A DNA stretch of 51,719 nt. It comes from an uncultured bacterium. Lineage in GTDB: Bacteria; Bacillota; Clostridia; Lachnospirales; Lachnospiraceae. The stretch spans positions 1 through 51,719 of the forward strand of contig CAMWUN010000024.1 in NCBI GenBank assembly GCA_947177425.1, read 5' to 3'. How positions within the stretch are numbered: position 1 is the stretch's first letter; each line of letters begins with the position of its first letter. The position numbers and the translations under genes were made by a program. Of the stretch, positions 246-17,446 are shown one piece after another. A model generated the notes under the pieces. The model was not told the DNA's origin, made no database searches, and saw nothing but the letters and a program-made list of their open reading frames with translations.

Positions 246-1844
246 TCATTCCCCCAATCTGCACGCCCCACTTTCTATAAAAGGCCAGACGATGCTAAAC
301 GGGAAAATAAGCGCCAGCACAAACACATACCGGAAGCTGAAAGCTATGGGGGATGCCGCCAGAAGGCTTAAAAACAGCATCCCCACCGGGCTCAGCACCA
401 CTGCCAGCCTGATTTTCCGCTGATAAAGCAAATATAGACACTCAGCAGACAGTATCCAGAAAGCCGTTCCCGCGCTTAAGTATCTATAGGTAAAACGGTT
501 ACAATAATAGGTATAAAAAAAGTTTCTGATGCCTTCTGGCAAAGGACTTTTCTGATACAAATTCAAATCATTGTCATAAATATCCTTGAAATAATACTGT
601 TCCCCATTTCTGGTTTCAATTCCCCATACCCCATAGGTATTTAATATAAGTGCTTCCGCATATACCGCTGGATTCTTTATAAGCAGTTCTGCCCAAATCC
701 TTATAAACTCTCCTTTGGTTTCGTTCAAAAATTCCCTATTGAATTCCTCGTGCCACTTTATTACATCCACACAGCACGGTGCATAAATATTCCATAATTC
801 CTCCGGGAATAACTGGTATAAATAATCTTTCTGTTCAGATGTAAGTTCCCGGCCTTTATTCACTGTTGCCGCTGCCTGCTGTAACTGCATCCCAACGCTT
901 TCCTGAAACAACCGCTCCACATCAGCAGGCTTTAATACCATTCCCATTCCTTCTGCAGTAACAATTGCCAGAAATACCAGCAGCAATATTTCTTTACGCC
1001 ACTTCCTATACACCATAATAAGCAGTACTGCCATTCCGGCTACAATAACCAGACCGTTGCCCCGGAAGCTTATCATCCCCCACAGACAAATTCCAACTTT
1101 AATGCAGAACTTTTTACTCTCCCATTCCTCCCCCTGACTGTCGTATGCATAAAAAAGCAATATGAGTAAAGAAAAAAGGCAAATACTAAAAGGCGTATCC
1201 TTAATTGCACTCACCGCATAAGTGGGAAAAACCGGAGCCAGGGAAAAATATGCTGTAAATATCCAGCATAACCACTTTTTTACCCCACGCCGGCGCATCA
1301 GTACAATTGCTGTTGAAAGCACGTAACTCATAACCGTCATCTGAATAAGGGAAATCAATGCCAGTCCCAAATTTTCATTCCAAATGATACTTCCTAAACG
1401 GAACAGCCCATAAGTATACAAATTGTAAATAACAGGGTGCTGTGCGCTCAAAAGCCATGGCTCTTCCAAAATATAAATGGTATCATTCATCGCTGTTCCC
1501 GGATAAAATACGAGAAAAAAGAAAAACCAGACACCCCAGATGCATCCGAACACCTTCCATTTTTCATATTTACCTGCAACTGCCTGTTCCCTGTCTTCCT
1601 TCAGCAAGGCAGCATTTTTCACCAGCCAGGGCAGAACTTTTTTGCAGACCAAATATCCTCCTGCCCATAGGGCTCCGAATAACACAACAAATATCAAAAC
1701 ATCCCATATACAAAAGCCCCGAAGATAATTTTGTGTATAATCTGCTCTCAAGTCTCCGGTTACATGCAGTTTCATAAGCAGCAAAATGTTCACTGATGTA
1801 TATAAGCTAAATAGCGCCAGATATATCTTCTTCCGCATGTTCAT
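246..1844 (-). CDS. DUF6020-like polytopic membrane protein, possible glycosyltransferase
   Basis: This is a protein of about 530 residues with many hydrophobic segments, in the surface-polysaccharide locus. A YPGT..ND motif followed by a QHPV..LY motif after the first helices matches the DUF6020 style of membrane protein, which resembles C-type (GT39-like) glycosyltransferases. The protein at 5284-7626 shares YPG, HHPI, a W.E.FN..(Y/F)LNE stretch and LLIKNP, so the two are paralogues. I place the start at ATG 1842-1844, which has GGGAAAGGG just upstream. A start at 1889 would add 15 residues overlapping the previous gene. It overlaps the 3-prime end of the polymerase-like gene by 38 bp, suggesting coupled translation. 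A role in adding or polymerising sugars at the membrane is inference. Confidence 0.75.
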   Translation of the reverse strand: MNMRKKIYLALFSLYTSVNILLLMKLHVTGDLRADYTQNYLRGFCIWDVLIFVVLFGALWAGGYLVCKKVLPWLVKNAALLKEDREQAVAGKYEKWKVFGCIWGVWFFFFLVFYPGTAMNDTIYILEEPWLLSAQHPVIYNLYTYGLFRLGSIIWNENLGLALISLIQMTVMSYVLSTAIVLMRRRGVKKWLCWIFTAYFSLAPVFPTYAVSAIKDTPFSICLFSLLILLFYAYDSQGEEWESKKFCIKVGICLWGMISFRGNGLVIVAGMAVLLIMVYRKWRKEILLLVFLAIVTAEGMGMVLKPADVERLFQESVGMQLQQAAATVNKGRELTSEQKDYLYQLFPEELWNIYAPCCVDVIKWHEEFNREFLNETKGEFIRIWAELLIKNPAVYAEALILNTYGVWGIETRNGEQYYFKDIYDNDLNLYQKSPLPEGIRNFFYTYYCNRFTYRYLSAGTAFWILSAECLYLLYQRKIRLAVVLSPVGMLFLSLLAASPIAFSFRYVFVLALIFPFSIVWPFIESGACRLGE

Positions 1845-2982
1845 CAGAATACCCTTTCCCTTCCGCAGCCTGTAAATGTTCCGCCCCATACCAGACAGCG
1901 GCTGCCCCCATCAGCATAAAATCACGTGTCAGATAATTAGAAAAGTATAAGGATTCCGTAAATAAATATATACTGAATCCTGCCAATACCAGACACCCAA
2001 ACTTGTCCTTTCTTGCCACACCGCGGCCAAAAGCATAGAATAGAAAAACAAAATAGCATATCGCCGGAATGATTCCATAGTAGTAAAATATCTGCACATA
2101 CCCCATATCGTACATATTTTTATTAACATAAGAAGAGAAAAGTCTCCAATTACTTACATATGGCAATGCAGACTGCATATCGCCCATGTGGATGTCAAGC
2201 TGGCTTACCCTTCCTCCAATCATATCATCAACTATTTCTATCATTCTTATCCCACGTACTTCTGCTGCCACAGCAATAGAAAACACAAAAAACAGTGTGA
2301 TCAATAAAACATAGGCAGTCAATAAGCCTCTGCTATACCGTTGTAAACCGCAAAACCGAAACAATACCGCCAGAACCAGTATAAGTCCCCCCACTATAAA
2401 TCCGGTTCTCGAATATGTCACTCCAAAAAGCGCGGCATATCCTGTGCCTAAAATTACATATTGAAGCAAAGACATTCTTTCACCGTATAAAAGCAGGCAA
2501 TAAGAGAGCATACTGAACATCAGAAACTGCAGCACATTGGGGTGGGCAAACCCAAGGCTGTACCGCGTCCCCAAAAATAAAAATCCTTCCCTGTAGTCCT
2601 CGACACTCCTTTTTCCAAAATCCCAGAACAGCGATGCGGCCATAATCCCGACTGTCACTGCTATCAGGGCCGCCAGCATCCATTGAAATAGCTTTTTGAT
2701 ATTAATTTCTTTTAACGCAAAAACATAAACCGGCGCCTTAATGCCTGTATTAATTCCGCTGGACATGTACAAAAGTACTCCCATCACCAGACAAAGAACT
2801 AAAGTCACCTTCTCTGTCCGCGAATAATGATTTGTACACGCCACTGCAAGATATACCACAAAAAATCCCCATAGAATAAATCTTCTTGGGGATATTTCAT
2901 ATTGACACATTTGTAATATTCCTAAGGCTAACTCCAGGCAGGATGCCGAAATAAAAAGAGTTTCTTTAATTATATTTTTCAT
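1807..2982 (-). CDS. Wzy/O-antigen-polymerase-like membrane protein
   Basis: The 391-residue product has about ten membrane segments. The segment GTRYSLGFAHPNVLQF, followed further on by a Y-S-R-T-G-F block (residues about 135-190), is the pattern seen in EpsG/Wzy-type polysaccharide polymerases and O-antigen ligases: a conserved H-P-N before one helix and S-R-T-G at the start of another. Such proteins join lipid-linked oligosaccharide units on the outer face of the membrane. Its neighbours are glycosyltransferase-like membrane genes, which fits. It overlaps the downstream DUF6020-like gene. The family is too divergent to name a polymer. Upstream lies a 250-bp gap holding a dispersed repeat. 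Confidence 0.75.
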   Translation of the reverse strand: MKNIIKETLFISASCLELALGILQMCQYEISPRRFILWGFFVVYLAVACTNHYSRTEKVTLVLCLVMGVLLYMSSGINTGIKAPVYVFALKEINIKKLFQWMLAALIAVTVGIMAASLFWDFGKRSVEDYREGFLFLGTRYSLGFAHPNVLQFLMFSMLSYCLLLYGERMSLLQYVILGTGYAALFGVTYSRTGFIVGGLILVLAVLFRFCGLQRYSRGLLTAYVLLITLFFVFSIAVAAEVRGIRMIEIVDDMIGGRVSQLDIHMGDMQSALPYVSNWRLFSSYVNKNMYDMGYVQIFYYYGIIPAICYFVFLFYAFGRGVARKDKFGCLVLAGFSIYLFTESLYFSNYLTRDFMLMGAAAVWYGAEHLQAAEGKGYSDEHAEEDISGAI

Positions 2983-3916: not shown

Positions 3917-4934
3917 TTATTTACTTAAGGAAACAGATGCGTTTTCTCTCTGTACAAATTTCTCTTTTAAAACGGTAATAAACAAATATCCTAATACACA
4001 GGAAGCCGCTAATTGATTAGCTTCAAGGGTAAATTTCCCCCAATCTCTAAATATCATTATATCTATGTGATGCAGCATAAGAATAAACATACTATTTATT
4101 CCTATGTATTCTAAAGCATTATCACATAACTTTAATTTTTCAATTATTTCAATTACTGACATCATCGTTATGCAACCTAAAAGTGACGAGATAATTGATA
4201 TCATAAAATACTGATTTTCTCCCATATTCATCCATTGATATGGGAGTTTATTAATAGCTAAATAATACATGCCCCCCCCCCAAAGCAGAAATAAAAATAT
4301 TAAAACAAATATTTAATCTTTTTAGGAAATCAAGCCCCTTAAAAATAGCTTTCCTAAAATAATCCCCTATTGCAAAAAACATGCATCCCACACATGCACA
4401 TTGCAAATTAAATGGCAAAATAAATTTCTTCATTGAAATAGACGCAATCATTGCCAATATAACCGAAATATGCAATTTCCATTTACTTTTTGAAATATAA
4501 AAATATAGTATATACGTAAAAAACATGCAACTCCAAAACCATATAGGCCCAACCGATATAGAATCAACATGAAAAAATGACACTCCTTGAATCCATGCAG
4601 GAGAAGCCAATATAAGACTCACCAAACATCGATAAAATATTTCAGATAAACTATTTCCGACATAATTCCTATTAACTATTTCATAATATATAAAATAAAT
4701 AATTGTTAATACTATGTATGGAATCAACAGCTTTCTTGCCATTTTTATAAAAAAAACACTAAAATTCTCTATACTTTTAAAAAACAACCCGGAATTTATA
4801 AAATAAAATATCAAAAAAAATACTGAAGTATACTTATTTATCGCCTGAAAGGAACCTGTCCATCCCGAAATATGTGTAAGTATCATACAAATCATACATA
4901 ATCCTTTAGCAATATCAAGACTCCTATAGCGCAT
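3917..4934 (-). CDS. Acyltransferase-3 family membrane protein, frameshifted at a G10 tract
   Basis: Two open frames, 4251-4934 and 3917-4270, together encode one acyltransferase-3 (OafA/DUF1624-like) protein of about 340 residues. The N-part starts MRYRSLDIAKG (R.LDI.KG is the family hallmark) and has ITHISGW (the conserved TH) in the first helix. The C-part has GINSMFILMLHH, the usual penultimate helix. They meet at a run of ten G (coding strand, 4272-4281). With G10 the frame reads GGGHVLFSY and stops. With G9 it reads GGGMYYLAINK and continues to the end. The start at 4934 has AAGGAG five bases upstream. Such enzymes O-acetylate or otherwise acylate extracellular polysaccharide. As sequenced the gene is OFF. 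Phase variation or a homopolymer read error are both possible. Confidence 0.8.
4272..4281 (-). repeat. Homopolymeric G10 tract inside the acyltransferase gene
   Basis: Ten consecutive C on the plus strand are ten G in the coding strand. The length is one more than needed for an open acyltransferase frame. A tract of this length in an AT-rich (roughly 30% GC) stretch is very unlikely by chance and is the classic substrate for slipped-strand mispairing. Confidence 0.9.
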
Positions 4935-5276
4935 CTGTTCTCCTTCCATTTGTGCCCTCCCTATTGTTTATTTTTAGGCAATTGCTCAAATCTACATACC
5001 CTATAAATATTGTGTTTATGCCCTCCTTTTTGTCTTCTCTCTTCATCACAATTAGACTTTTGCACAAAAATTTCATTCTAATACAAGTAATTAATACTTA
5101 TACACTTATTTTACTTTTTTATAAAACAGTCTCAAAAAGAACATTATATCTATTGATGTATTTGCTTTACTCCCCGGTAAACCGTATACTTCTGCTTAAT
5201 AAAGCTGTGGAAGTTATTTACTGTATTTAGATTATAAAAGCAGGAATACTCCCTAGATTGAATACTAATCTTACAC
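4935..5276. other. Intergenic stretch, no gene seen
   Basis: This is about 340 bp of AT-rich sequence between two minus-strand membrane genes. A plus-strand frame of 92 codons crosses it (4952-5230) but has no ribosome site and no recognisable composition. On the minus strand two purine-rich AGGAGGG/GGGAGGG blocks precede the acyltransferase start. No hairpin terminator is obvious. Confidence 0.5.
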
Positions 5277-5283
5277 TTAATCC

Positions 5284-7626
5284 TTATGCATTTTCATAAC
5301 CACACATAAAATAAAGATATAAACCGGTAACAGATAATATTCTGCAAGACCATATCTTTCCCAATATACGTAAGGCGTTGCAATAAATAATGTTGCTATC
5401 AACCCCAAAGATGGAGCTAATGCAATAACATAACTCCCCCCCCCTATTGATAATTACAGCAAATAAAAATAAGACAAGCCAATTTATGAGTGCAAGGGAA
5501 ATCGTTGTTCCATGAAAATCAAATATTGCATTCCAATTTACATCTATACTTCCAAGTAGGTTTTTAGGCTCAATACCTTTATGATCCCATTCATAAAAAT
5601 TAGCCAAACCACCCTTTTCAATATTTCCGTTATCTGCAAAAGACTCCCAATAATTAGGCGCCCAGTAACCAAATGTATTCAGCATCCATGCTTCAACATA
5701 TAGTTTAGGATTTTTTATCAATAAAGAAATATATGTACTTATAAATTCATTTAAATGCTCATTCAGATATTCCTGATTAAAATCTTCATCCCATTTAAGG
5801 CGGTCTACAACACAGGGTCTATATGTACTTGGGTATTTTTCTAATGGAAGAATCCTATCCATAAACTGTCTGTCTTCTTCATCCATTTTCCCTTCATATG
5901 CTGCTACTCTTGCCATTTGGTTAAGAAATATTCCAAGACTCTCCACCGGTTCATCTACAATACCCATACGGGAATACACTGGCCCTGTAATAACATATAC
6001 ACACACAAGGATTATACCAGTACTTACGGACAGCTTTTTTATTCCAATTAGATACTCTTTATTCTTCTCAATGACTAAAAAGGCAATAAATATTATCTCA
6101 CTAAAGAGAATCAAATAAAAACCATTGTTTCTTGAAAAACAAATTAACAAAATCAACAGACAAGACTTAAAAATATAAAACTTGTCATGAAAAACAGCAG
6201 TGCCTTTACTTATTACACAATCCAGCAAATGCAATGACCATAGTAATATAGTTGCAGAAAAAACAGGATCTTTCCACATAGCAATACTATTTTGCGCTAT
6301 AAAAGGCAGAAACGCAAACCCAGCCATAATGAACATACAGCAACGGACTGAAAATCCTTTATTTTTCAGCCAGCATATCATATATCCCAGGCAAAACGCA
6401 ATATACACCATTTGAATCAGTGTATACAAAGCACATCCCAATGTGATGTCTTTTACCATCATTCCCACACTAAGGCATCCCCTGATAAATAAGGTGTACA
6501 TAATTGGGTGATGATTATTCAAAGGCTCCCCCAATGCCTGATATATAGATGATAAAGAATCCGGAAATATAAATCCGGGGTAATAAACAAGAAAATATGG
6601 AAGCCAAGAAATAAAGATAAACACTGCCACCACAATACAATATTCAAATCTAACTTTCTTATATTCTTCCTTTAAATCCATCTTATTACTTACAGAATTT
6701 ATTAACACACAAATATGTCCAAATCCTTTGTAAAAAATATATGTTAATATAACAAATGCTACAAAATCAATTTCTGTATAATGTGCTATATAATTCTCTG
6801 TCATTAATCCAAAATAGAAATTACCATTGGTCGTAATGTGATATCCACCAATATTTGCAACACTCAATGCTGCAGAAAATAATAGGGCTAAAAATACATC
6901 TAATTTTTTATCTAATAATATCTTTTTACTAAATAAATAGTATAATAATGCTGCAATTAAAATCCATAAAAATCCATTATCCGGTAATCTCATATATTTC
7001 TGTACAAATAACGCAGAAAAAAAGGAAAAACTTATGCATACTAATTTTTTTATTAGTGAAACTGCTCTCTTATCTTTACAAAATACTTTAAAGCTTTTAT
7101 GCAAAATCTTTATCAAAAGAATTGCTATGGTAGCAAAAATAGTAATCGCGATAAACCACATCGCTGTAAATCGGAGTATACCTCTCCATGAATTAATAAT
7201 TATTCTATCTATCTGTATTGTTGCCCCTTCTACTTCAACTAAATCAAACCTAAAATTTTTAGTTTCCCAATTTCCTAAATATTTGTGAATATATATATAA
7301 TTTTTTCCTACTTTTAATCTTTGTCGTATATATTTCCAAGTATCAGTATCAGATACCTGCCCCATCCCACCTAAATCATTAATGTCCGATACATCAATTT
7401 CTATGACTTTAACGGGAACTTTTTCTTCCAAGGTATAACTAATCCATGGATCATTTGTCGTTGCCATAAGTTCTGAATCAGATATTAAAAAATCTTTTAA
7501 ATTCTCTTCGTGCTCTATATATAACTCATCATTTGTTAGCCTTTTTTGCGGATAGCTTTGTAAATAAAACAGCACACAAACTATATATATTATCAGCCCT
7601 AACAATAATGTTGTCCACTTTTTCAT
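5284..7626 (-). CDS. DUF6020-like large membrane protein, C-terminus out of frame after a G9 tract
   Basis: The 780-residue product has an N-terminal signal anchor, an extracellular region of about 110 residues, then many membrane helices. YPGFIFPDSLS followed by HHPIMY and later LLIKNPKLY match the paralogue at 246-1844. Near the end a run of nine G (5436-5444) precedes an unrelated tail, NRGGELCYCISS. If one G is removed, the frame instead reads VIALAPSLGLIATLFIATP and then YVYWERY, ending at TAA 5277-5279. That alternative tail aligns without gaps to the paralogue end (AVVLSPVGMLFLSLLAASP then IAFSFRY). So the native frame is the other one and the last 60 or so residues are altered here. 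It is probably a polysaccharide glycosyltransferase or polymer-modifying protein. Confidence 0.8.
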   Translation of the reverse strand: MKKWTTLLLGLIIYIVCVLFYLQSYPQKRLTNDELYIEHEENLKDFLISDSELMATTNDPWISYTLEEKVPVKVIEIDVSDINDLGGMGQVSDTDTWKYIRQRLKVGKNYIYIHKYLGNWETKNFRFDLVEVEGATIQIDRIIINSWRGILRFTAMWFIAITIFATIAILLIKILHKSFKVFCKDKRAVSLIKKLVCISFSFFSALFVQKYMRLPDNGFLWILIAALLYYLFSKKILLDKKLDVFLALLFSAALSVANIGGYHITTNGNFYFGLMTENYIAHYTEIDFVAFVILTYIFYKGFGHICVLINSVSNKMDLKEEYKKVRFEYCIVVAVFIFISWLPYFLVYYPGFIFPDSLSSIYQALGEPLNNHHPIMYTLFIRGCLSVGMMVKDITLGCALYTLIQMVYIAFCLGYMICWLKNKGFSVRCCMFIMAGFAFLPFIAQNSIAMWKDPVFSATILLWSLHLLDCVISKGTAVFHDKFYIFKSCLLILLICFSRNNGFYLILFSEIIFIAFLVIEKNKEYLIGIKKLSVSTGIILVCVYVITGPVYSRMGIVDEPVESLGIFLNQMARVAAYEGKMDEEDRQFMDRILPLEKYPSTYRPCVVDRLKWDEDFNQEYLNEHLNEFISTYISLLIKNPKLYVEAWMLNTFGYWAPNYWESFADNGNIEKGGLANFYEWDHKGIEPKNLLGSIDVNWNAIFDFHGTTISLALINWLVLFLFAVIINRGGELCYCISSIFGVDSNIIYCNALRILGKIWSCRILSVTGLYLYFMCGYENA
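5436..5444 (-). repeat. Homopolymeric G9 tract near the 3-prime end of the DUF6020-like gene
   Basis: Nine C on the plus strand (nine G coding). The frame that matches the paralogue requires eight (or eleven) G. This is the second long G tract in 1.2 kb. No other run of this length occurs in the window. Confidence 0.9.
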
Positions 7627-7824: not shown

Positions 7825-9804
7825 CTAAACTGGTGCCACTTCCAACATATAAGTATATAGCTGTTGCAAATGAATTAAATTTGCACAAATCATAATAAAT
7901 GCTATGCTCCCATACCCCAATAATTTTTGTATTGGTCTTTTTAAAATGTCTTTAAGTCCAATTATAAGTAAAGAAATAACAGCCCAAGCAAAGTACAGAC
8001 TAAATAACGGACTACAGGAAGCTGCAAACCCAACAATTATAAACTGAACAATTCCCCATAAAATCCATGCAGCAAATATTTGAATAGCCTTTTCTTTTCT
8101 ATGCCTTATAACTGTTATAAATATTGTTACAAAAATTACAACTCCCAAAATATTTATTTCATTCTTCACACCACTCCAGTAAAATATATTTGTGTATCCA
8201 TCAAATATAACTCCATATGGTACAGGCATCAAACACGATGCGAGCAAGTTAAAAAAAGCACATATTTTTCCAATCAATTTCGGAACCGTTTCAACTAAAT
8301 CCGTTAAAGAAATACTAGTATAATTAATAATTAATTGATTAGATGTCCCGACTGCCCCTATACCAAAAGTATTAAAAATACTTAAAATGCCAAGCAATAT
8401 TTTTTTTCCATTAAACATCTCAAAATTATGATTAATCAAGTATGGAAAATTTATCAAATAAATAATTCGTCCTGCTCCTATTAATACAGCAAAAAAATTT
8501 TCGATGATCTCTACATACTCTCTTAATCGTGTTGCCAATCGCTTTCGTTTTCCATAAAAAAAACCTAGCCATGCTGAAGTAATCATTGTGCCACTTGCTG
8601 CAATTAATGAATAGCATTGAAGTGACTTCTCTTTCTTTTTAACAACTGTATATACAAACATTACAAGAAAAAATGTTGCCATTTGATATTTCTCTATAAA
8701 AATTGTAAAAAAAGTAAAAGGAAATGATAAATTAAATATTAAATATATCCAATTACTATTTATTATTCTTTTCAACATAATCACTGTTAAAATTAACATT
8801 ATAGTTTGAACTATTGCATATAAAAGAGGCTGTATATTAGGTATTATGTATAACAAATTTGATATAAATTTAACAATTACGTAAATAGGATATGTATATA
8901 ACGTAGTCAACGGATGTCGGATGCCTCCATTTCCTATATCCCAATCAAAATCATATCCCAAACTAAATACCGGATAATAATGATTATATACAAAATTAGA
9001 ATCTGTTTGATAAACAATATCCAAGGTATTCCATTGTGCCCATGTTTTCGAGTAAAAAAAACAGATCAATGAAAGTCCTTCTAACAAAGATATTATAAAA
9101 TACCTTTTTTCGCTTATATCTGCCGTCTTATACAAATGGCTTAAAAAACCTTTAATAAGGTCACATGTTTTCAATAAAAATATAAAAACAGAAAAAAAAG
9201 AGATTATACATACTATGGGCAAAACTATATTATAACTTATCTCTCTATACTTATCCCAATCAATCATTATAATTTTGCCCAATGCCAAAAAAATATGATC
9301 ATAATTTCTTTGTGTGTCTAATAGTAGACGATAACAAACTACAATTGCAAACAAAAAGGCCGTCCACCCTGTTGTCATTGATATATTCTCTATTACTTTT
9401 TGAGGGAGTTGTTTTATATATGCCAGCTTCCAATAAATCAGTAACATAAGCACTGTTGCTAACAGTGCATAAGATATATTTACTTGATAAGAATCAGATG
9501 AATACAAATTATACTTAATAATAACACTATAGTTCAGACTTAATACAAATGTTAAAATCTCCCCTGAAACTATAAATGCAATTTTATAATATTTCTTTGT
9601 TTGATTATGTATTTCATTCCAAAATTCTTTCTGCCCCAACCTCTCCTCACTCCCTTCTGTATATTGTGCCAGTTTAAGCAATAGAAAACTGCCTGAAATT
9701 GCTACACAAAAAGTTATTATTAAATCAGAACAAACATTAGCAACAATATAAAAATGCTCATATTTTCCCTTATACCCAATGGCAAAAATAGTAACAAAAA
9801 TCAA
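7825..9804 (-). CDS. Large polytopic membrane protein of unknown family
   Basis: The product has about 650 residues with some 14 hydrophobic segments. A region between helices (residues about 275-310) has FVYNHYYPVFSLGYDFDWDI and then GNGGIRHPLTTLY; the aromatic/acidic loop followed by HP recalls the loops of GT39/DUF6020-type membrane glycosyltransferases, but I cannot assign a family. The gene is strongly AT-rich. Its 5-prime end is weak: the first usable start is TTG at 9804, with no clear ribosome site and an in-frame stop 13 codons upstream, so the N-terminus may be truncated. It sits between a degraded membrane gene and the G9-tract gene in the surface-glycan locus. A glycan role is inferred only from position and topology. 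Confidence 0.7.
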   Translation of the reverse strand: MIFVTIFAIGYKGKYEHFYIVANVCSDLIITFCVAISGSFLLLKLAQYTEGSEERLGQKEFWNEIHNQTKKYYKIAFIVSGEILTFVLSLNYSVIIKYNLYSSDSYQVNISYALLATVLMLLIYWKLAYIKQLPQKVIENISMTTGWTAFLFAIVVCYRLLLDTQRNYDHIFLALGKIIMIDWDKYREISYNIVLPIVCIISFFSVFIFLLKTCDLIKGFLSHLYKTADISEKRYFIISLLEGLSLICFFYSKTWAQWNTLDIVYQTDSNFVYNHYYPVFSLGYDFDWDIGNGGIRHPLTTLYTYPIYVIVKFISNLLYIIPNIQPLLYAIVQTIMLILTVIMLKRIINSNWIYLIFNLSFPFTFFTIFIEKYQMATFFLVMFVYTVVKKKEKSLQCYSLIAASGTMITSAWLGFFYGKRKRLATRLREYVEIIENFFAVLIGAGRIIYLINFPYLINHNFEMFNGKKILLGILSIFNTFGIGAVGTSNQLIINYTSISLTDLVETVPKLIGKICAFFNLLASCLMPVPYGVIFDGYTNIFYWSGVKNEINILGVVIFVTIFITVIRHRKEKAIQIFAAWILWGIVQFIIVGFAASCSPLFSLYFAWAVISLLIIGLKDILKRPIQKLLGYGSIAFIMICANLIHLQQLYTYMLEVAPV

Positions 9805-10471: not shown

Positions 10472-12343
10472 TTACCCCTTATTTTTCCCCAATTCCCTCT
10501 TAATTTCTCTAAACATATGTACCGGCCCGTACATAAACAGACATCTAATTGTCCGGTACACCGGAGACATTGCTTCACGGTTCGCTCTTCTTCCAGCATC
10601 TACTCTCTCAATCTCCTTATTTCCTGCATAACAGGACATTCGATATAAAAGTACCTCATAATAAGGTGTCTTTTTTGCATAGTCCCAATATATACTTCCA
10701 AAATCACCTTCCGGGAACAGCCAAGGCTTTTCCGGCCCTGCATAGTGTATTATCTTTGGATGCTTTCTTGCTTCCACATATTCCAAATAAAGCCATTCAG
10801 GTGCAAGACGTATAATTTCCTTCAATCTGATTCCTGCCCAGTCAAACATCACGTTCCAGCTCATATCTAAAAATTTCACTTTGTGTTCACACAGCTTATT
10901 TAGGATATCCTGATCCAGCAGCCACCATTCTTTTGACGCCGCAACGTCCAGAATTTTCTTTGTCGTATAGGTTTTTCTGAATTCTTTCAAATTCATAACC
11001 AATGTTCCAGCCTGAAAATAGTAATACGGATTTTCCAGAGCCAGTTCCTTATCCATATACTCTTTTCTGTCTGGCTGCCATCCATTATACAATCCTGCTG
11101 TATCCGGATCATGTGCTGCCGCCAGCAGGTAGCCTTCAACATCTGTATGATATAGTTCTGCAAGGTCCGCTACTGCAACCATATCTACATCAATATATAA
11201 AACTTTATCATATTCTGAAAGCATCTCTGGCAACACAAGTCTATAATATGTTTCTACACTGAAATGCCCTCTGGTATATAAATCATATCCATCAAGAAAA
11301 CTTCCCGGATCACTAAAACGTAACGAGAAATTTTCTACTTTACCCAATGTTGCCAGCAGGTTATCTTTATTTTCTTTCTTCATGTCATGAGACAGTATTA
11401 AAATATCATAATTATTTTTCTGTGAAGAATGTTCTCTGATAGACAATAATAATGTGCTTATATAAGGCGCATAATAATCATTAGCGGCTACAATTATCGG
11501 AACATTTTTTTCTGCAAATGCTGGTTTGATTTTTTCTGGTACATCCACATTTTTAAATAATGTTCTTTGCAGTTCACAGCATCTTACTTTTTTATATTTC
11601 TTTTGGTATGTGTAATAAATACCAAACATTCTTTCAGCAAGATATCCGCTTATCCGTTTTCCGTCTATCGTATATTCAGAATAATCACGCCTTTTTTCAT
11701 GCTCTTCTAAAATGGTAAACAACCATTCACTATAATCATGAAACAGTTCCTTTGTCATTATGAACATATTACAGTAGTATCCATACTTTTCTTTATAAAA
11801 ATATGAATACGCCGTATCATAATAAGCAGGATATTTTTCCTTTATTATATCTAATAAAACTTCAATGTCTTCCTTATACTGATAAGGGGTCAACACATAT
11901 TGGTCATAGTTATTATGCAAATCTCTATGCAGCTTGGGCAAATTCACCGGAGGTGTTGTAATAATATCATATTGATTTATCTTTTTTATCATTGTATCTT
12001 TATCCAGATTCAATTTCTTCAATGCATTGTCTGTAAGATACTCCATTTCAACGTCCTGAAATTTATTTGCCTTAAACTGTTTTTCCGAAAAAGACATGTA
12101 TCTGCGATAATGGAAAAATCCATAATAATCTGCTTCCTCATGTTTCCACGCCCAATACTGCGCTGTCAGTTCACAATAACTCTGGTTTTTTGCTGAAATA
12201 TTTTCCCCTTCATCATCATGAAGCATATTGGGAAATCTTTTTTTGCTCTTAGCAGCACCTACCTGAATTGGATATAGTAAATCATGCTTTGGCAAATAAC
12301 ATTTTTTATGGCATGATATGTATATTTTTATATTTTCTTTCAT
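10472..12343 (-). CDS. DUF4422-GT8 fusion glycosyltransferase
   Basis: The product has about 623 residues and two domains. Residues about 5-245 are DUF4422, starting KIYISCHKKCYLP and containing HYRRYMSF, a domain found in capsule glycosyltransferases. Residues about 280-560 are a GT-A fold of family 8, with VPIIVAANDYYAPYISTLL at the start, the metal-binding LYIDVDMVA (D-x-D), then FQAGTLVMNL, LLDQDILN and HYAGPEKPW, all GT8 landmarks. It is soluble or peripheral and likely transfers hexoses from a nucleotide sugar to the lipid-linked chain. The start at 12343 is preferred because GGAGG lies six bases upstream. It follows the ABC exporter gene in the same direction with a 36-bp gap. Confidence 0.9.
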   Translation of the reverse strand: MKENIKIYISCHKKCYLPKHDLLYPIQVGAAKSKKRFPNMLHDDEGENISAKNQSYCELTAQYWAWKHEEADYYGFFHYRRYMSFSEKQFKANKFQDVEMEYLTDNALKKLNLDKDTMIKKINQYDIITTPPVNLPKLHRDLHNNYDQYVLTPYQYKEDIEVLLDIIKEKYPAYYDTAYSYFYKEKYGYYCNMFIMTKELFHDYSEWLFTILEEHEKRRDYSEYTIDGKRISGYLAERMFGIYYTYQKKYKKVRCCELQRTLFKNVDVPEKIKPAFAEKNVPIIVAANDYYAPYISTLLLSIREHSSQKNNYDILILSHDMKKENKDNLLATLGKVENFSLRFSDPGSFLDGYDLYTRGHFSVETYYRLVLPEMLSEYDKVLYIDVDMVAVADLAELYHTDVEGYLLAAAHDPDTAGLYNGWQPDRKEYMDKELALENPYYYFQAGTLVMNLKEFRKTYTTKKILDVAASKEWWLLDQDILNKLCEHKVKFLDMSWNVMFDWAGIRLKEIIRLAPEWLYLEYVEARKHPKIIHYAGPEKPWLFPEGDFGSIYWDYAKKTPYYEVLLYRMSCYAGNKEIERVDAGRRANREAMSPVYRTIRCLFMYGPVHMFREIKRELGKNKG

Positions 12344-12379
12344 AACTAACCTCCACATTTTTGATTATTCTTAATTATT

Positions 12380-13114
12380 TTATCTTGTTGTCATGAATTC
12401 CTGATACTTAGAAAGCACCTTCTGTGCCTGCCCAATATCCATTATTCTACCAGCATCCAACCACATAACCCTGTCACACAACTTTTCCAATGTCTCTATA
12501 CTATGTGACACAATTATAACAGTTCTGTCCTTATCCTGTATCAGTGATTCCATCTTAGCCAGGCTCTTTCTCTGAAATCCTTCATCCCCAACGCTTAAAA
12601 CCTCATCTACCAGAATAATATCGGTTTCCAGATTACAGGTAATGGAAAACGCAAGCTTTGAGTACATACCGCTGGAATAAGTTTTAACTGGCCTGTCTAT
12701 AAATTCTCCTAACTCAGCGAATTCGATAATTTCTTCTTCCTTCTCCTTTATCTGCTTTTCTGTAAATCCCAGCAGCATACCTGATATAAATATATTTTTT
12801 CTTCCAGACAAGGTGCCTTTAAATCCCAGACCTAATGAAAGCAGAGAAATTGTATTTCCCTTTAAATCGACAGTTCCTGAATTTGGACAGAACACCCCTG
12901 CAATCGCCCGTAGCAAAGTTGATTTTCCACTTCCATTCTTTCCAATAATTCCCAGAATTTCTCCCTTTTCCACCTGAAAGGATACTCCCTTTACTGCTTC
13001 AAACTCCTCCGCGTCTTCTGCGTCTCTGCGCAGCAGATTTTTTTGTATGGAAAAATTCTTCAAAAGTTTATAAGTAATCTTCACATCCGAAACATCTATC
13101 GCTATTTCCTTCAT
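12380..13114 (-). CDS. Polysaccharide/teichoic-acid export ABC ATPase (Wzt/TagH type)
   Basis: This 244-residue ABC ATPase has Walker A GKNGSGKST at residues 58-66, the signature YSSGMYSKL near 150 and Walker B IILVDEVLSVGD near 170. The VLSVGD motif and the N-terminal extension before the ATPase core (LKNFSIQKNLLRR) are typical of Wzt/TagH exporters that move finished surface polysaccharides. It lacks the C-terminal carbohydrate-binding domain found in long Wzt proteins. The ATG at 13112-13114 has AAGGAG five bases upstream. The permease gene is 33 bp upstream in the same direction. Together they form the exporter. Confidence 0.93.
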   Translation of the reverse strand: MKEIAIDVSDVKITYKLLKNFSIQKNLLRRDAEDAEEFEAVKGVSFQVEKGEILGIIGKNGSGKSTLLRAIAGVFCPNSGTVDLKGNTISLLSLGLGFKGTLSGRKNIFISGMLLGFTEKQIKEKEEEIIEFAELGEFIDRPVKTYSSGMYSKLAFSITCNLETDIILVDEVLSVGDEGFQRKSLAKMESLIQDKDRTVIIVSHSIETLEKLCDRVMWLDAGRIMDIGQAQKVLSKYQEFMTTR

Positions 13115-13147
13115 AATCACTCCTTATCAGCCATCATACCTGCCACA

Positions 13148-13927
13148 TTATATTATCTTGACATAATTATTTTCATTTTTATTAATCAGCCGGATACCGC
13201 CTGCCGCCAGCAAAAGTGAAATAATCAGCCATATACTGAGCATAATCCTTGACGGTGTTTCATTATAAAGAAGTGATTTCCGCATACAGAATATCAGATG
13301 CGCTATAGGATTCATTCTTTGAAGTAAATATCCAAATGGAGCTGGAAGTCCCTTTTGGATATTGAAGAAAATTCCTGTTAAATAAAACATCAGATTCAGT
13401 ACAATCGCCACCAGCCTGGAAAGGTCACTGACATACACGCCAAAGTGAAGAAAATACAGACTGCATGCAAAACAAAAAACAAAAAATACAATCAAATTCG
13501 GAATCATATAAAGCAGATTAACACCTATTGGCACTTTGTAAGCAATCATCAGCAGCGCTACAAGTCCCCAGCTTATCAGCATCTTGAAGCACAAAACCAG
13601 CATTCTCTGGATAAGCAGAATATATTTAGGTATGTAGATTCTGGAAATAATGTGCTGGTTATTTCTGATTAAATCCACGCTGGAAGTAACACACCTGCTG
13701 AAATAATCCCATACGGTAATCCCAATAAACACAAATATGGGAAAGTATGCCTCGTCTGTCTTGAATACAACTCCAAATATCAGTACATATACCAGCATGG
13801 AACTCATAGGCTCTAATATCCACCAAAGCCAGTTCAAGTACGAGTTTGCCACTTCCTCCTGTAAATCAGCCTTTGCCGCATACACGGCAAAACTCCAATA
13901 CCTTTTTAATGCCCTAAAAAAATTCAT
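13148..13927 (-). CDS. Polysaccharide export ABC permease (Wzm/TagG type)
   Basis: This is a 259-residue ABC-2 permease with six predicted helices. Motifs typical of TagG/Wzm are NSYLNWLWWILEPMSSMLVY near the N-terminus (the amphipathic segment and first helix), RNNQHIISRIYIPKYIL in the middle, and RMNPIAHLIFCMRKSLLY before the last helix. It partners the ATPase downstream. Its ATG overlaps the TGA of the preceding glycosyltransferase gene (ATGA), a sign of translational coupling. Confidence 0.93.
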   Translation of the reverse strand: MNFFRALKRYWSFAVYAAKADLQEEVANSYLNWLWWILEPMSSMLVYVLIFGVVFKTDEAYFPIFVFIGITVWDYFSRCVTSSVDLIRNNQHIISRIYIPKYILLIQRMLVLCFKMLISWGLVALLMIAYKVPIGVNLLYMIPNLIVFFVFCFACSLYFLHFGVYVSDLSRLVAIVLNLMFYLTGIFFNIQKGLPAPFGYLLQRMNPIAHLIFCMRKSLLYNETPSRIMLSIWLIISLLLAAGGIRLINKNENNYVKII

Positions 13928-15291
13928 TTATCAGTCCTCTTATTCCAATTTAGAAGTTTCATTTTTGTATACCACCCCAAATTCCCTTTTCCTGTATACA
14001 TCATAATGAGACACACACATCTCCAGTAACCCATATTCCTGTCAAGCTGCTGTCTGGCTCTTTTTATATATTCCTTTTTATATTTCTTCTCAATTTTTGA
14101 TAATGCATACCCATGTGTCTGTATTTTGACTATCTGCAATAAATCCTGCAGCCGCTCATCCTTAAACTCATCCGTATACTTGTCCAGAAAATCAAATATA
14201 GGGAAATGTACAAACAGTCTTTCGTCCCTACAGCTTACATCCTGCCCTTTCCGCCCCAGCCTGTAATAGTACAAATGCTCCGGCACACATGCTGCACTTC
14301 CTGCCGCAAAAATATATTCTACCCGAAAAGGAAGATCGTCAAATCTTTTTAAGCTTTCATGAAACCTGATATGATTCTTTTTAAGAATGTCTTTCCTGTA
14401 GACAGCCCTCCATATCGCCACCCGGGTATTAACTGCAAGTAACTGCACCTTGTCCTTACGGTATGTTCCCGTCAGATATGGGTCTTTCAGACAGTCATTT
14501 AGTATATCTTTTGTACTGCCGTCTTCCTCATAATATTCCTTATACCCACAATAAGCCATTTCATAATTACCCATCAAAGCCCTTTGAAACAGCTTATAAA
14601 ACATAGTTTCATCTATGAAATCATCCGGGTCTGCGAAGCCAATATACCTTCCCTTTGCCTCCTCAATCCCACGATTCCGGGCTGACGCACAGCCACCATT
14701 GTCCTTATCAATCAGGCGGATACGACTGTCATTCTGTGCACACCTTAAAATAATTTCTCTGGATTCATCGGTACTGCCGTCATTGACAAAAATATATTCC
14801 ACATAAGGCGCTTTCCATTTCAACAGGGAATCCATGCACTTGGGCAGATACTTTGCCACATTATAGACCGGAAGGATGACGGATAGCTCAATCCCTCCAG
14901 CCTTTTTTTCCCATTCAAGAACTTCACAGGACGCAATATCCGCTGTGACCTGTTCCGGTTTTAATCCCCTGTCCTGTTCTATGTAAATATAATCAGCTTC
15001 TTCCCTGTAGCTTTCCCATACTTTGAAGTAATTTTCTGTTTTCCGCATCCTGCCAATCAAATATTTGGTTTGAATATAATTATGGGAAATGATATCCTGT
15101 TCACAGTCATAATCAAAAATAATGGCATCTATTTCCTTTATCTGCTTAGGTTCCAAGGATGGATGTATTACCTGAATTTCCTTCACATCCCGGAGCCATT
15201 TCTCCAATGTCTCATATTCCTGTGTCGCAGCAATCAGTAATGCTGTCTTAATATCATATTTATTTGATAAATAGTTCACTATCTGTTGCAT
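13924..15291 (-). CDS. GT2 glycosyltransferase with extra N-terminal domain
   Basis: The product is 455 residues. A GT-A family 2 domain begins near residue 134 with ELSVILPVYNVAKYLPKC, followed by FVNDGSTDES, DNGGCASARNRGI and the metal site FADPDDF. The first 130 residues are a separate alpha/beta domain (TALLIAATQEYETLEKWL then IDAIIFDYDCEQ) of unknown role, perhaps a degenerate nucleotide-binding fold. It lies in an operon with the exporter: four-base overlap downstream, two-base gap upstream. It probably adds one sugar of the repeating unit. The donor and linkage cannot be read from sequence. Confidence 0.88.
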   Translation of the reverse strand: MQQIVNYLSNKYDIKTALLIAATQEYETLEKWLRDVKEIQVIHPSLEPKQIKEIDAIIFDYDCEQDIISHNYIQTKYLIGRMRKTENYFKVWESYREEADYIYIEQDRGLKPEQVTADIASCEVLEWEKKAGGIELSVILPVYNVAKYLPKCMDSLLKWKAPYVEYIFVNDGSTDESREIILRCAQNDSRIRLIDKDNGGCASARNRGIEEAKGRYIGFADPDDFIDETMFYKLFQRALMGNYEMAYCGYKEYYEEDGSTKDILNDCLKDPYLTGTYRKDKVQLLAVNTRVAIWRAVYRKDILKKNHIRFHESLKRFDDLPFRVEYIFAAGSAACVPEHLYYYRLGRKGQDVSCRDERLFVHFPIFDFLDKYTDEFKDERLQDLLQIVKIQTHGYALSKIEKKYKKEYIKRARQQLDRNMGYWRCVCLIMMYTGKGNLGWYTKMKLLNWNKRTDK

Positions 15292-15293
15292 AC

Positions 15294-16346
15294 TTAAGCT
15301 ACTCTTTCCCCAGCCCCCAAAAGCTTTTTAATCATTTTTTCACACATATCCTGCCACAGATAGTCATAAAAAATGAAATTAAATATCCTGAACCTGATTG
15401 CCGTCATAAACAGCAGATACTGTCTTGCGTCCGCCTTCGTACAGTTCTTTCTGGTTCCTTTTACTAATTCCATGTAATATCTGGAAGACAGCCCCTTAAA
15501 CAAATAATGGATTTTATTTACCAGCAGCTTTCGATGTTCCGTATCTGCCATACGGATGCACCATATGGAAAATCTGACCAGAACACGCATTGCCGGAAAA
15601 TATAAATCCCTTCTGCCTTCCCTGTTGATATACTGTAATAAGTCTTCAAATACAATTAATAAATCCAGCCTGTCGGCTCCCCTAGAAGCGGTGATCTGGC
15701 TGCTGCTTCCAATTCTGTAGTAAAATCCAATTTCACTAATACCCATACAGGCGGTACATTGGGAAAGCAGATAAAAGTGGGGATACACATCCTCCCATTT
15801 AATCTTTTCCCTAAAACTAAAGTTAACTCTTTTTACGAAATCCATATGCAGGACTTTTCTGCACTGATTCACTTCAAACCGGTATATATCTTCTTTTTCG
15901 CCCGGATTGATAATTTCCCCTTCAGAGGTAAAAATCTTGTCAAACAAGTCCTTGTCATACCAGTCCCTGACTGCCCTGCTTCCTTCATGGAATATCTGGG
16001 GCAGTGTCATAATCATTTCTATATTTTCCCCTTTATGCCTGTCCAGATGCCAGATAAGCTTCTCAACATACTGGGGCATTAGCCAGTCGTCGCTGTCAAG
16101 AAATGATACATAAGGCGTGTCCACAAAACGCAGTCCTGTGTTCCGGGCTCCGCCAAGTCCCCTGTTCTCCTGTGGGATATAGCGGATTTTATCATTCTTT
16201 TCCGCAAGATAGCTTTGACATATTTCATCTGTCCTGTCAGTTGAACCGTCATTTACAAGAATCAGCTTATATCTGTCGTCTGTCTGATGTAAAATACTTT
16301 CAATTGTCCTTGCCAGCGTCTTTTCGGCATTATATGCCGGAACCAC
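15294..16346 (-). CDS. GT2 glycosyltransferase with uncertain start codon
   Basis: This GT2 protein has VPAYNAEKTLARTIES, LVNDGSTDRTDE, ENRGLGGARNTGL and the metal site FLDSDDW. The first ordinary start in frame (GTG 16344-16346) cuts into the first beta strand. The codons before it read VVTFVVPAYN, as the family requires, but a TGA lies ten codons upstream and the only start in that stretch is ATT at 16365-16367, five bases after a GGTGAG ribosome-like site. Either ATT is used or a one-base change separates the gene from ATG 16390-16388 in another frame. It sits between two other GT2 genes in the operon. Confidence 0.85.
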   Translation of the reverse strand: MVPAYNAEKTLARTIESILHQTDDRYKLILVNDGSTDRTDEICQSYLAEKNDKIRYIPQENRGLGGARNTGLRFVDTPYVSFLDSDDWLMPQYVEKLIWHLDRHKGENIEMIMTLPQIFHEGSRAVRDWYDKDLFDKIFTSEGEIINPGEKEDIYRFEVNQCRKVLHMDFVKRVNFSFREKIKWEDVYPHFYLLSQCTACMGISEIGFYYRIGSSSQITASRGADRLDLLIVFEDLLQYINREGRRDLYFPAMRVLVRFSIWCIRMADTEHRKLLVNKIHYLFKGLSSRYYMELVKGTRKNCTKADARQYLLFMTAIRFRIFNFIFYDYLWQDMCEKMIKKLLGAGERVA

Positions 16347-16390
16347 AAAGGTAACTACTTCCCTAATCGCAACTCACCCGCCATCTTCTC

Positions 16391-17446
16391 TCAGCACATA
16401 TTGTATATCTTTTGCTTTCTTTTTTTTTCCTCTGCAACCGCACTGTTATCCTGAACCACATGGGGTTCCCACCGAAGGGCAGTCTCTTCTTGCTGCTCTC
16501 TGGCAAGGGAATCGTATTCCATCCTGCGGATGTGGTACTGGGTGTCTGACAATATTCTGCGGTTTGCCGCCATCAGGTCAGACACAAGCCCAATCATAAA
16601 TGTCAGAAAGCCGATAATAATCAGCGTACAGCCAAGTATCAGGGACTGAACATGCCCGTATCCTTTTCCTATGGCAATTAAGTATAAGAAACGCATACCG
16701 ATACCCAGGCCGATAAAAAGAGGAATACTTGAAAGGTATGTAAAACATTTCAGCGGCTGATACATCATGTAGGCCCTCAGGATGATAACAATTGACTTTT
16801 TCACATAAGACCAGATTCCATGAAACAGCCGGGACGGCCGCAAATCCGGGTTTGTGTGCACCGGCACGCTTGTAACTGCAATCTTGTCCCTTCCAGCCTG
16901 AACAATCGTCTCTAAGGTGTATGTATAATCGTTAATTACATTAATATGCATTGCCGCTTCCCGGGACATTGCCCGGAAACCGCTGGGTGCATCCGGTATA
17001 TCCGTATTGGACGCCTTCCTCACTGCCCAGCTTCCAAAGTGCTGAAGCTTCTTTTTTAAAAAAGAGAAATGTTCCGTCTCGTCAATGGGCCTTGCACCTA
17101 TGACCATATCTGCTTCTCCGTCAAGAATTGGCTGGATAAGCCGCTGAATATCCTCCGCACAATATTGATTGTCCGCATCAGTGTTTACGATAATGTCCGC
17201 ACCGTTTCTAAGACACCCGTCAAGTCCGGCCATAAATCCTCTGGCCAGTCCTTTGTTCTGATTAAAATTGACAATATGGTGCACCCCCCAGTTTTTGGCA
17301 ACCTCCACCGTAGCGTCTTTACTTCCGTCATTGATAATCAGATACTCAATCTTATCCACGCCTTCCAGCTTTTTGGGAAGATCATTTAACGCCACTTCGA
17401 GAGTATTGGCCTCATTGTAACAGGGGATTTGAATAATCAGCTTCAT
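16391..17446 (-). CDS. Dolichyl/undecaprenyl-phosphate-type GT2 glycosyltransferase
   Basis: The 351-residue product has a GT2 catalytic domain (IIQIPCYNEANTLEVALNDL, IINDGSKDAT, NKGLARGFMAGLD and the metal site VNTDADNQY) followed by two C-terminal membrane helices near residues 235-300. This is the DPM1/GtrB arrangement, in which a sugar is moved from a nucleotide sugar to polyprenyl phosphate on the inner membrane face. QYxxxDIxxL and GFRAMSREAA are also conserved in that group. Such lipid-linked sugars feed GT39-like membrane transferases, two or three of which are in this locus. It begins five bases after the preceding gene. Confidence 0.9.
   Translation of the reverse strand: MKLIIQIPCYNEANTLEVALNDLPKKLEGVDKIEYLIINDGSKDATVEVAKNWGVHHIVNFNQNKGLARGFMAGLDGCLRNGADIIVNTDADNQYCAEDIQRLIQPILDGEADMVIGARPIDETEHFSFLKKKLQHFGSWAVRKASNTDIPDAPSGFRAMSREAAMHINVINDYTYTLETIVQAGRDKIAVTSVPVHTNPDLRPSRLFHGIWSYVKKSIVIILRAYMMYQPLKCFTYLSSIPLFIGLGIGMRFLYLIAIGKGYGHVQSLILGCTLIIIGFLTFMIGLVSDLMAANRRILSDTQYHIRRMEYDSLAREQQEETALRWEPHVVQDNSAVAEEKKRKQKIYNMC

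Follow-up and report, generated by a model that had tools for sequence, protein, structure and literature searches.

Gut commensals can switch their surface polysaccharides at random by means of invertible promoters, which rely on recombinase-driven inversion. Random surface variation of this sort decides which phages and host antibodies are able to bind to a bacterium. Where a review of gut surface polysaccharides deals with this subject, phase variation is named for Bacteroides only (PMC12413058). Switching at poly-G tracts is described for Campylobacter, an organism without mismatch repair whose switching rates are up to 100 times those of Neisseria meningitidis (PMC4235727), and in C. jejuni G8 tracts tend to gain and tracts of G11 or longer to lose bases (PMC8355987). 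In the relevant part of a survey of 81 bacterial and 18 archaeal genomes, just 9 showed over-representation of poly-G of 7 and/or 8 (PMC2831843). No report of poly-G slippage switching in Lachnospiraceae was found among titles and abstracts of the open-access literature, which is weak evidence of novelty. The window (the whole 51,719-nt stretch analysed, contig CAMWUN010000024.1 of an uncultured member of this family) contains two neighbouring genes with long G tracts that are likely contingency loci for slipped-strand phase variation. This is the reading given in the original prediction, and it is supported by same-site length differences between species in further tract genes of the genus and by G/C tracts that are out of frame far more often than A/T runs of the same DNA.

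Both tracts lie in genes on the minus strand, reading as C runs on the plus strand, and were confirmed in the sequence at the positions first proposed, 4272-4281 (G10) and 5436-5444 (G9). At its assembled length the G10 tract puts an Acyl_transf_3 gene out of frame. The N-terminal part (4251-4949, minus strand) matches positions 2-229 of PF01757 at 45.2 bits, above the cut-off of 31, and the C-terminal part (3917-4270, minus strand), in a different frame, matches positions 233-322 at 18.8 bits, below that cut-off, so that in the Pfam profile search the two pieces are consecutive parts of a single domain. The G9 tract is found in a gene for a polytopic membrane protein of the DUF6020 family (5284-7626, minus strand; PF19484, 118.2 bits, above the gathering score of 28.3). 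Here the ORF is open at both lengths (780 aa as assembled, 782 aa at one G fewer), and ORF length, which does not discriminate, was dropped as a frame criterion. The only named relative found, in Lachnospiraceae bacterium 1XD21-87 (L018; 78% aa identity), agrees with the family assignment of the window and has a C-terminal tail corresponding to the frame at one G fewer, unlike the tail downstream of the assembled tract (5284-5435, minus strand). As assembled, G9 replaces the last 52 aa, with loss of two predicted hydrophobic C-terminal segments; the altered product may or may not be inactive, and to label it OFF is an assumption. Removal of one G, as claimed, restores the family-consistent frame of the acyltransferase (232 aa to a spanning ORF of 343 aa) and, by homology only, that of DUF6020.

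The two tract genes follow three family-2 glycosyltransferase (GT2) genes (13924-17446), an ABC-2 type exporter (ATPase plus membrane protein; 12380-13927) and a gene combining DUF4422 with glycosyltransferase family 8 (10472-12358), all identified by Pfam context and on the minus strand. As judged from these neighbours, the setting is consistent with a surface-polysaccharide locus, as originally suggested. Neighbours at 7825-9804 and 1807-2982 had no Pfam match in the profile search, and a second DUF6020 gene (246-1889, minus strand; 92.6 bits) is without a long G tract. The 1XD21-87 locus has a G9 of its own (4071-4079), close to where a GT2 gene stops; it also contains a piece of an acyltransferase (4190-4615) that looks interrupted.

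Within the window alone the number of tracts is not significant (five overlapping G8 matches, with five or more in 22 of 100 dinucleotide shuffles), and this test was replaced by a genome-wide run-length spectrum. In the source genome (4.19 Mb in 142 contigs) this spectrum comprises 33 G/C runs of at least 7, namely 22 G7, one G8, eight G9 and two G10. The ten runs of 9 or more compare with 1.07 expected by extrapolation from the genus-wide G8:G7 ratio (Poisson P 2e-7), and this excess at 9-10, with the shortage of G8, agrees with the bias of slippage described in C. jejuni (PMC8355987). Genes contain six of the ten: four are out of frame (the acyltransferase, DUF6056, DUF2142 and a LIC_10190-family membrane gene), DUF6020 is out by homology and one is in frame, the other four tracts being outside genes, close to the beginning of a gene or within small ORFs. 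Four genes would have their long frame with a tract of eight Gs, and every one of them is assembled with nine. The LIC_10190-family tract gene would encode 544 aa at one G fewer, in agreement with its matches in 36 of 37 genus genomes (source included, with a second source-genome copy), which are mostly open frames of ~553-606 aa at 27-37% identity.

The in-frame G9 of the source genome lies in a B12-binding radical-SAM gene (L013:3837-5276, contig C15) that immediately follows NeuB, with an aminotransferase nearby, a neighbourhood that resembles a sialic-acid-like sugar locus. Its sole G8 (L012:4410-4417, equivalent to C12:38409-38416) is five bases upstream of the point at which translation of a flagellin gene (matching Pfam Flagellin_N/C) probably starts, and a change in tract length here would alter ribosome-site spacing.

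Across 37 genomes of the genus, including the source, runs of 7 number 648, runs of 8 number 128 and runs of 9 or more number 148, the last against 31.5 extrapolated; individual genomes have 0 to 17 runs of 9 or more, with none in seven. The original prediction, of two genes, is sound as an observation, and the phenomenon is broader than it stated, being genome- and genus-wide. The frame census covers 104 of the 148 tracts, from the source genome and 24 others, the remaining 44 belonging to genomes G052, G005, G020, G003 and G012. Sixty-two tracts lie well inside ORFs (G on the coding strand in 54), where a mechanical rule finds the frame broken in 27, kept in 20 and ambiguous in 15; the other 42 are near the 5′ end (17) or 3′ end (2) or in no or only small ORFs (23). 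Under the same rule and in the same 642 kb, just 8/283 A/T runs of 7-8 and 15/351 G/C runs of 5-8 are out of frame (Fisher P < 1e-14 for the excess in tracts of 9 or more over each control); the A/T control runs are shorter than the tracts, with just two in-gene A/T runs of 9 or more, both in frame.

Families matched by tract genes (n = 81) include Methyltransf_23 (8), Acyl_transf_3 (4), Hexapep (4), AraC (4), MBOAT (3), DUF2142 (3) and FkbM (2). Control genes (n = 71, the first in locus order of 100 drawn from 135 ORFs found) have, among the matches listed, Methyltransf_23 (2), AraC (2) and Acyl_transf_3 (at least 1), and a concentration of tracts in glycan and surface genes is suggestive only. 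In the wider family, G9 is present in 204 of 298 genomes; bare presence was rejected as evidence, since ~0.85 runs of 9 or more per genome are expected anyway, and only high-count genomes are suggestive. Overlapping G9 matches are far above chance in G178 (112), G217 (117), G101 (66), G287 (65) and G142 (54). At L159:3001-3021 (G009, C58), C tracts of 9 and 10, separated by just two bases, lie close to the end of a contig and in no sizeable ORF.

Tract regions that resemble each other at the DNA level were compared in thirteen pairs, with one genome per species. The tract is at the same site in eight, uncertain in two and at different sites in three, and the closer same-site pairs have 73-88% DNA identity between species. 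Four same-site pairs differ in length, and in three of these the frame is kept in just one of the two copies: an AraC-type regulator (L073:3001-3009, C9, in frame; L082:3001-3010, C10, out), an MBOAT acyltransferase (G9 in frame, G11 out) and a family that matches no Pfam profile (in frame with G10, out with G9, the G9 copy, L094, being interrupted again past the tract). The fourth, an FkbM methyltransferase, has G9 in frame and an ambiguous G10 with a further small indel nearby. Lengths are equal in the pairs for DUF2142 (G9/G9), L075/L087 (G10/G10), L131/L150 (G9/G9) and large Calx-beta proteins (L091/L155; G9/G9 near the 5′ end, both in frame). L096, aligned with L131/L150 at first, is not counted, as protein comparison puts its tract 26 codons off. 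The DUF2142 G9 occupies one site in the source species and G013 and another in G043, and in G006 the DUF2142 frame is intact with no run of 6 or more; a tract appears to have originated on two occasions in this gene.

The orthologue comparison envisaged in the original prediction found tracts conserved between species with varying length in further tract genes of the genus. At the site of the window DUF6020 tract the 78% relative has none. Other DUF6020 matches in 40 related genomes have at most 34% identity, and those of the window acyltransferase, in four other genus genomes, at most 29%, too distant for tract comparison.

These comparisons also bear on other explanations. If the frameshifts were homopolymer errors of sequencing or assembly, true tract lengths would differ from those assembled and both window genes would always be intact. 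Poly-G/C of 8 or more is reported to be misread in Illumina assemblies (PMC4235727), which makes individual tract states less certain than the tracts themselves, with error in single lengths possible, and four source-genome genes are each one G above their long frame. Error cannot, however, create the tracts, which are found in excess, and it would have to be non-uniform across genomes given the 20 in-gene tracts of 9 or more that are in frame; A/T runs of 7-8, though shorter, are seldom out of frame. Error is an unlikely source of the pattern. It is quite improbable that the tract genes are instead decaying pseudogenes in which the first frameshift merely fell at a G tract, since the window genes are open on either side of the tract, their sole interruption, same-site tracts are kept between species at the identities given above and many tract genes are in frame; the features that would suit decay are the interrupted look of the acyltransferase-piece relative in 1XD21-87 and the second interruption in L094.

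Programmed slippage of the ribosome or RNA polymerase, with a fixed DNA tract yielding two products per gene, would be compatible with the two C-termini of similar length available to DUF6020 and with the shared direction of shift in 28 of the 36 coding-strand G tracts that are out of frame or ambiguous, which need one G fewer. The other eight need one G more, though, and a search that starts at a length of 9 is biased towards the commoner class; same-site tract lengths change between species, and 20 in-gene tracts are in frame, all of which makes this explanation highly improbable.

Slipped-strand switching, the preferred reading, accounts for the excess at 9-10, the shortage of G8, the mixture of frames and the same-site length changes. 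From the observed tracts, frames and relatives we infer slippage and switching of the following form. Strands would slip at a G tract during replication, with gain or loss of single Gs, and in some cells the gene would flip from its full-length frame to one whose product is shortened or altered, and back; in the assembly both window genes would be in an off or altered state. Switching of the acyltransferase would determine whether acyl groups are put on the surface polymer of the ABC-exporter locus, and the tract in DUF6020 would switch the C-terminal membrane end of a large membrane protein, which we take to be perhaps a type of glycosyltransferase. Were the two genes to switch independently, four surface states would result. 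The pair would be two of the six genes that carry tracts of 9 or more in this genome, similar sets being present in other species of the genus, and independent switching would leave clones differing randomly in surface decoration, perhaps as a shield from phages or host antibodies.

The absence of MutS that accompanies hypermutable poly-G in Campylobacter was not found: mutS1 is present in the source genome (1032 bits) and mutS scores above its threshold in 35 of the 37 genomes of the genus, so switching rates may be below those of Campylobacter. The tract set is real and probably consists of functional slipped-strand switches of a known kind. It is also fairly likely, if less firmly so than for the two window tracts, that a genus with mutS carries, throughout its genomes, a bank of poly-G switches that slip independently of one another in genes for large membrane proteins, surface proteins, transcription regulators and glycan-decorating enzymes, as a second route to random surface variation besides DNA inversion. 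If so, up to ten or more G-tract switches per species would make one strain many surface types; strain comparisons and studies of phage susceptibility or antibody binding would have to take tract lengths into account; and some annotated frameshifts would mark switchable genes. Switching at the tract in the AraC-type regulator might switch whole regulons.

Invertible promoters share with the proposed system the random switching of surface polysaccharides, but act by inversion and not slippage. There is also a likeness to C. jejuni: in both, G/C tracts of mainly 9-10 occur in AT-rich DNA, in and between genes, in mixed frames and several per genome, as far as described in the accounts of that species (PMC8355987, PMC4235727). 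Many of the C. jejuni tracts are in surface-glycan genes, and the family matches suggest the like here. C. jejuni has no mismatch repair and its switching has been measured, whereas here mutS is present and switching is inferred from assembled sequence. The G9 of DUF6020 would act like the near-3′ tracts described for the C-terminal switching genes of Helicobacter canadensis, which alter the C-terminus while expression continues (PMC2823697); tract-length variation was seen there in reads, and here lengths are those of the assembly. In-gene poly-G control of the ON/OFF type, at rates below those of Campylobacter, is also described for hmbR and hpuAB of N. meningitidis (PMC4235727), which are haemoglobin receptors and not glycan enzymes.
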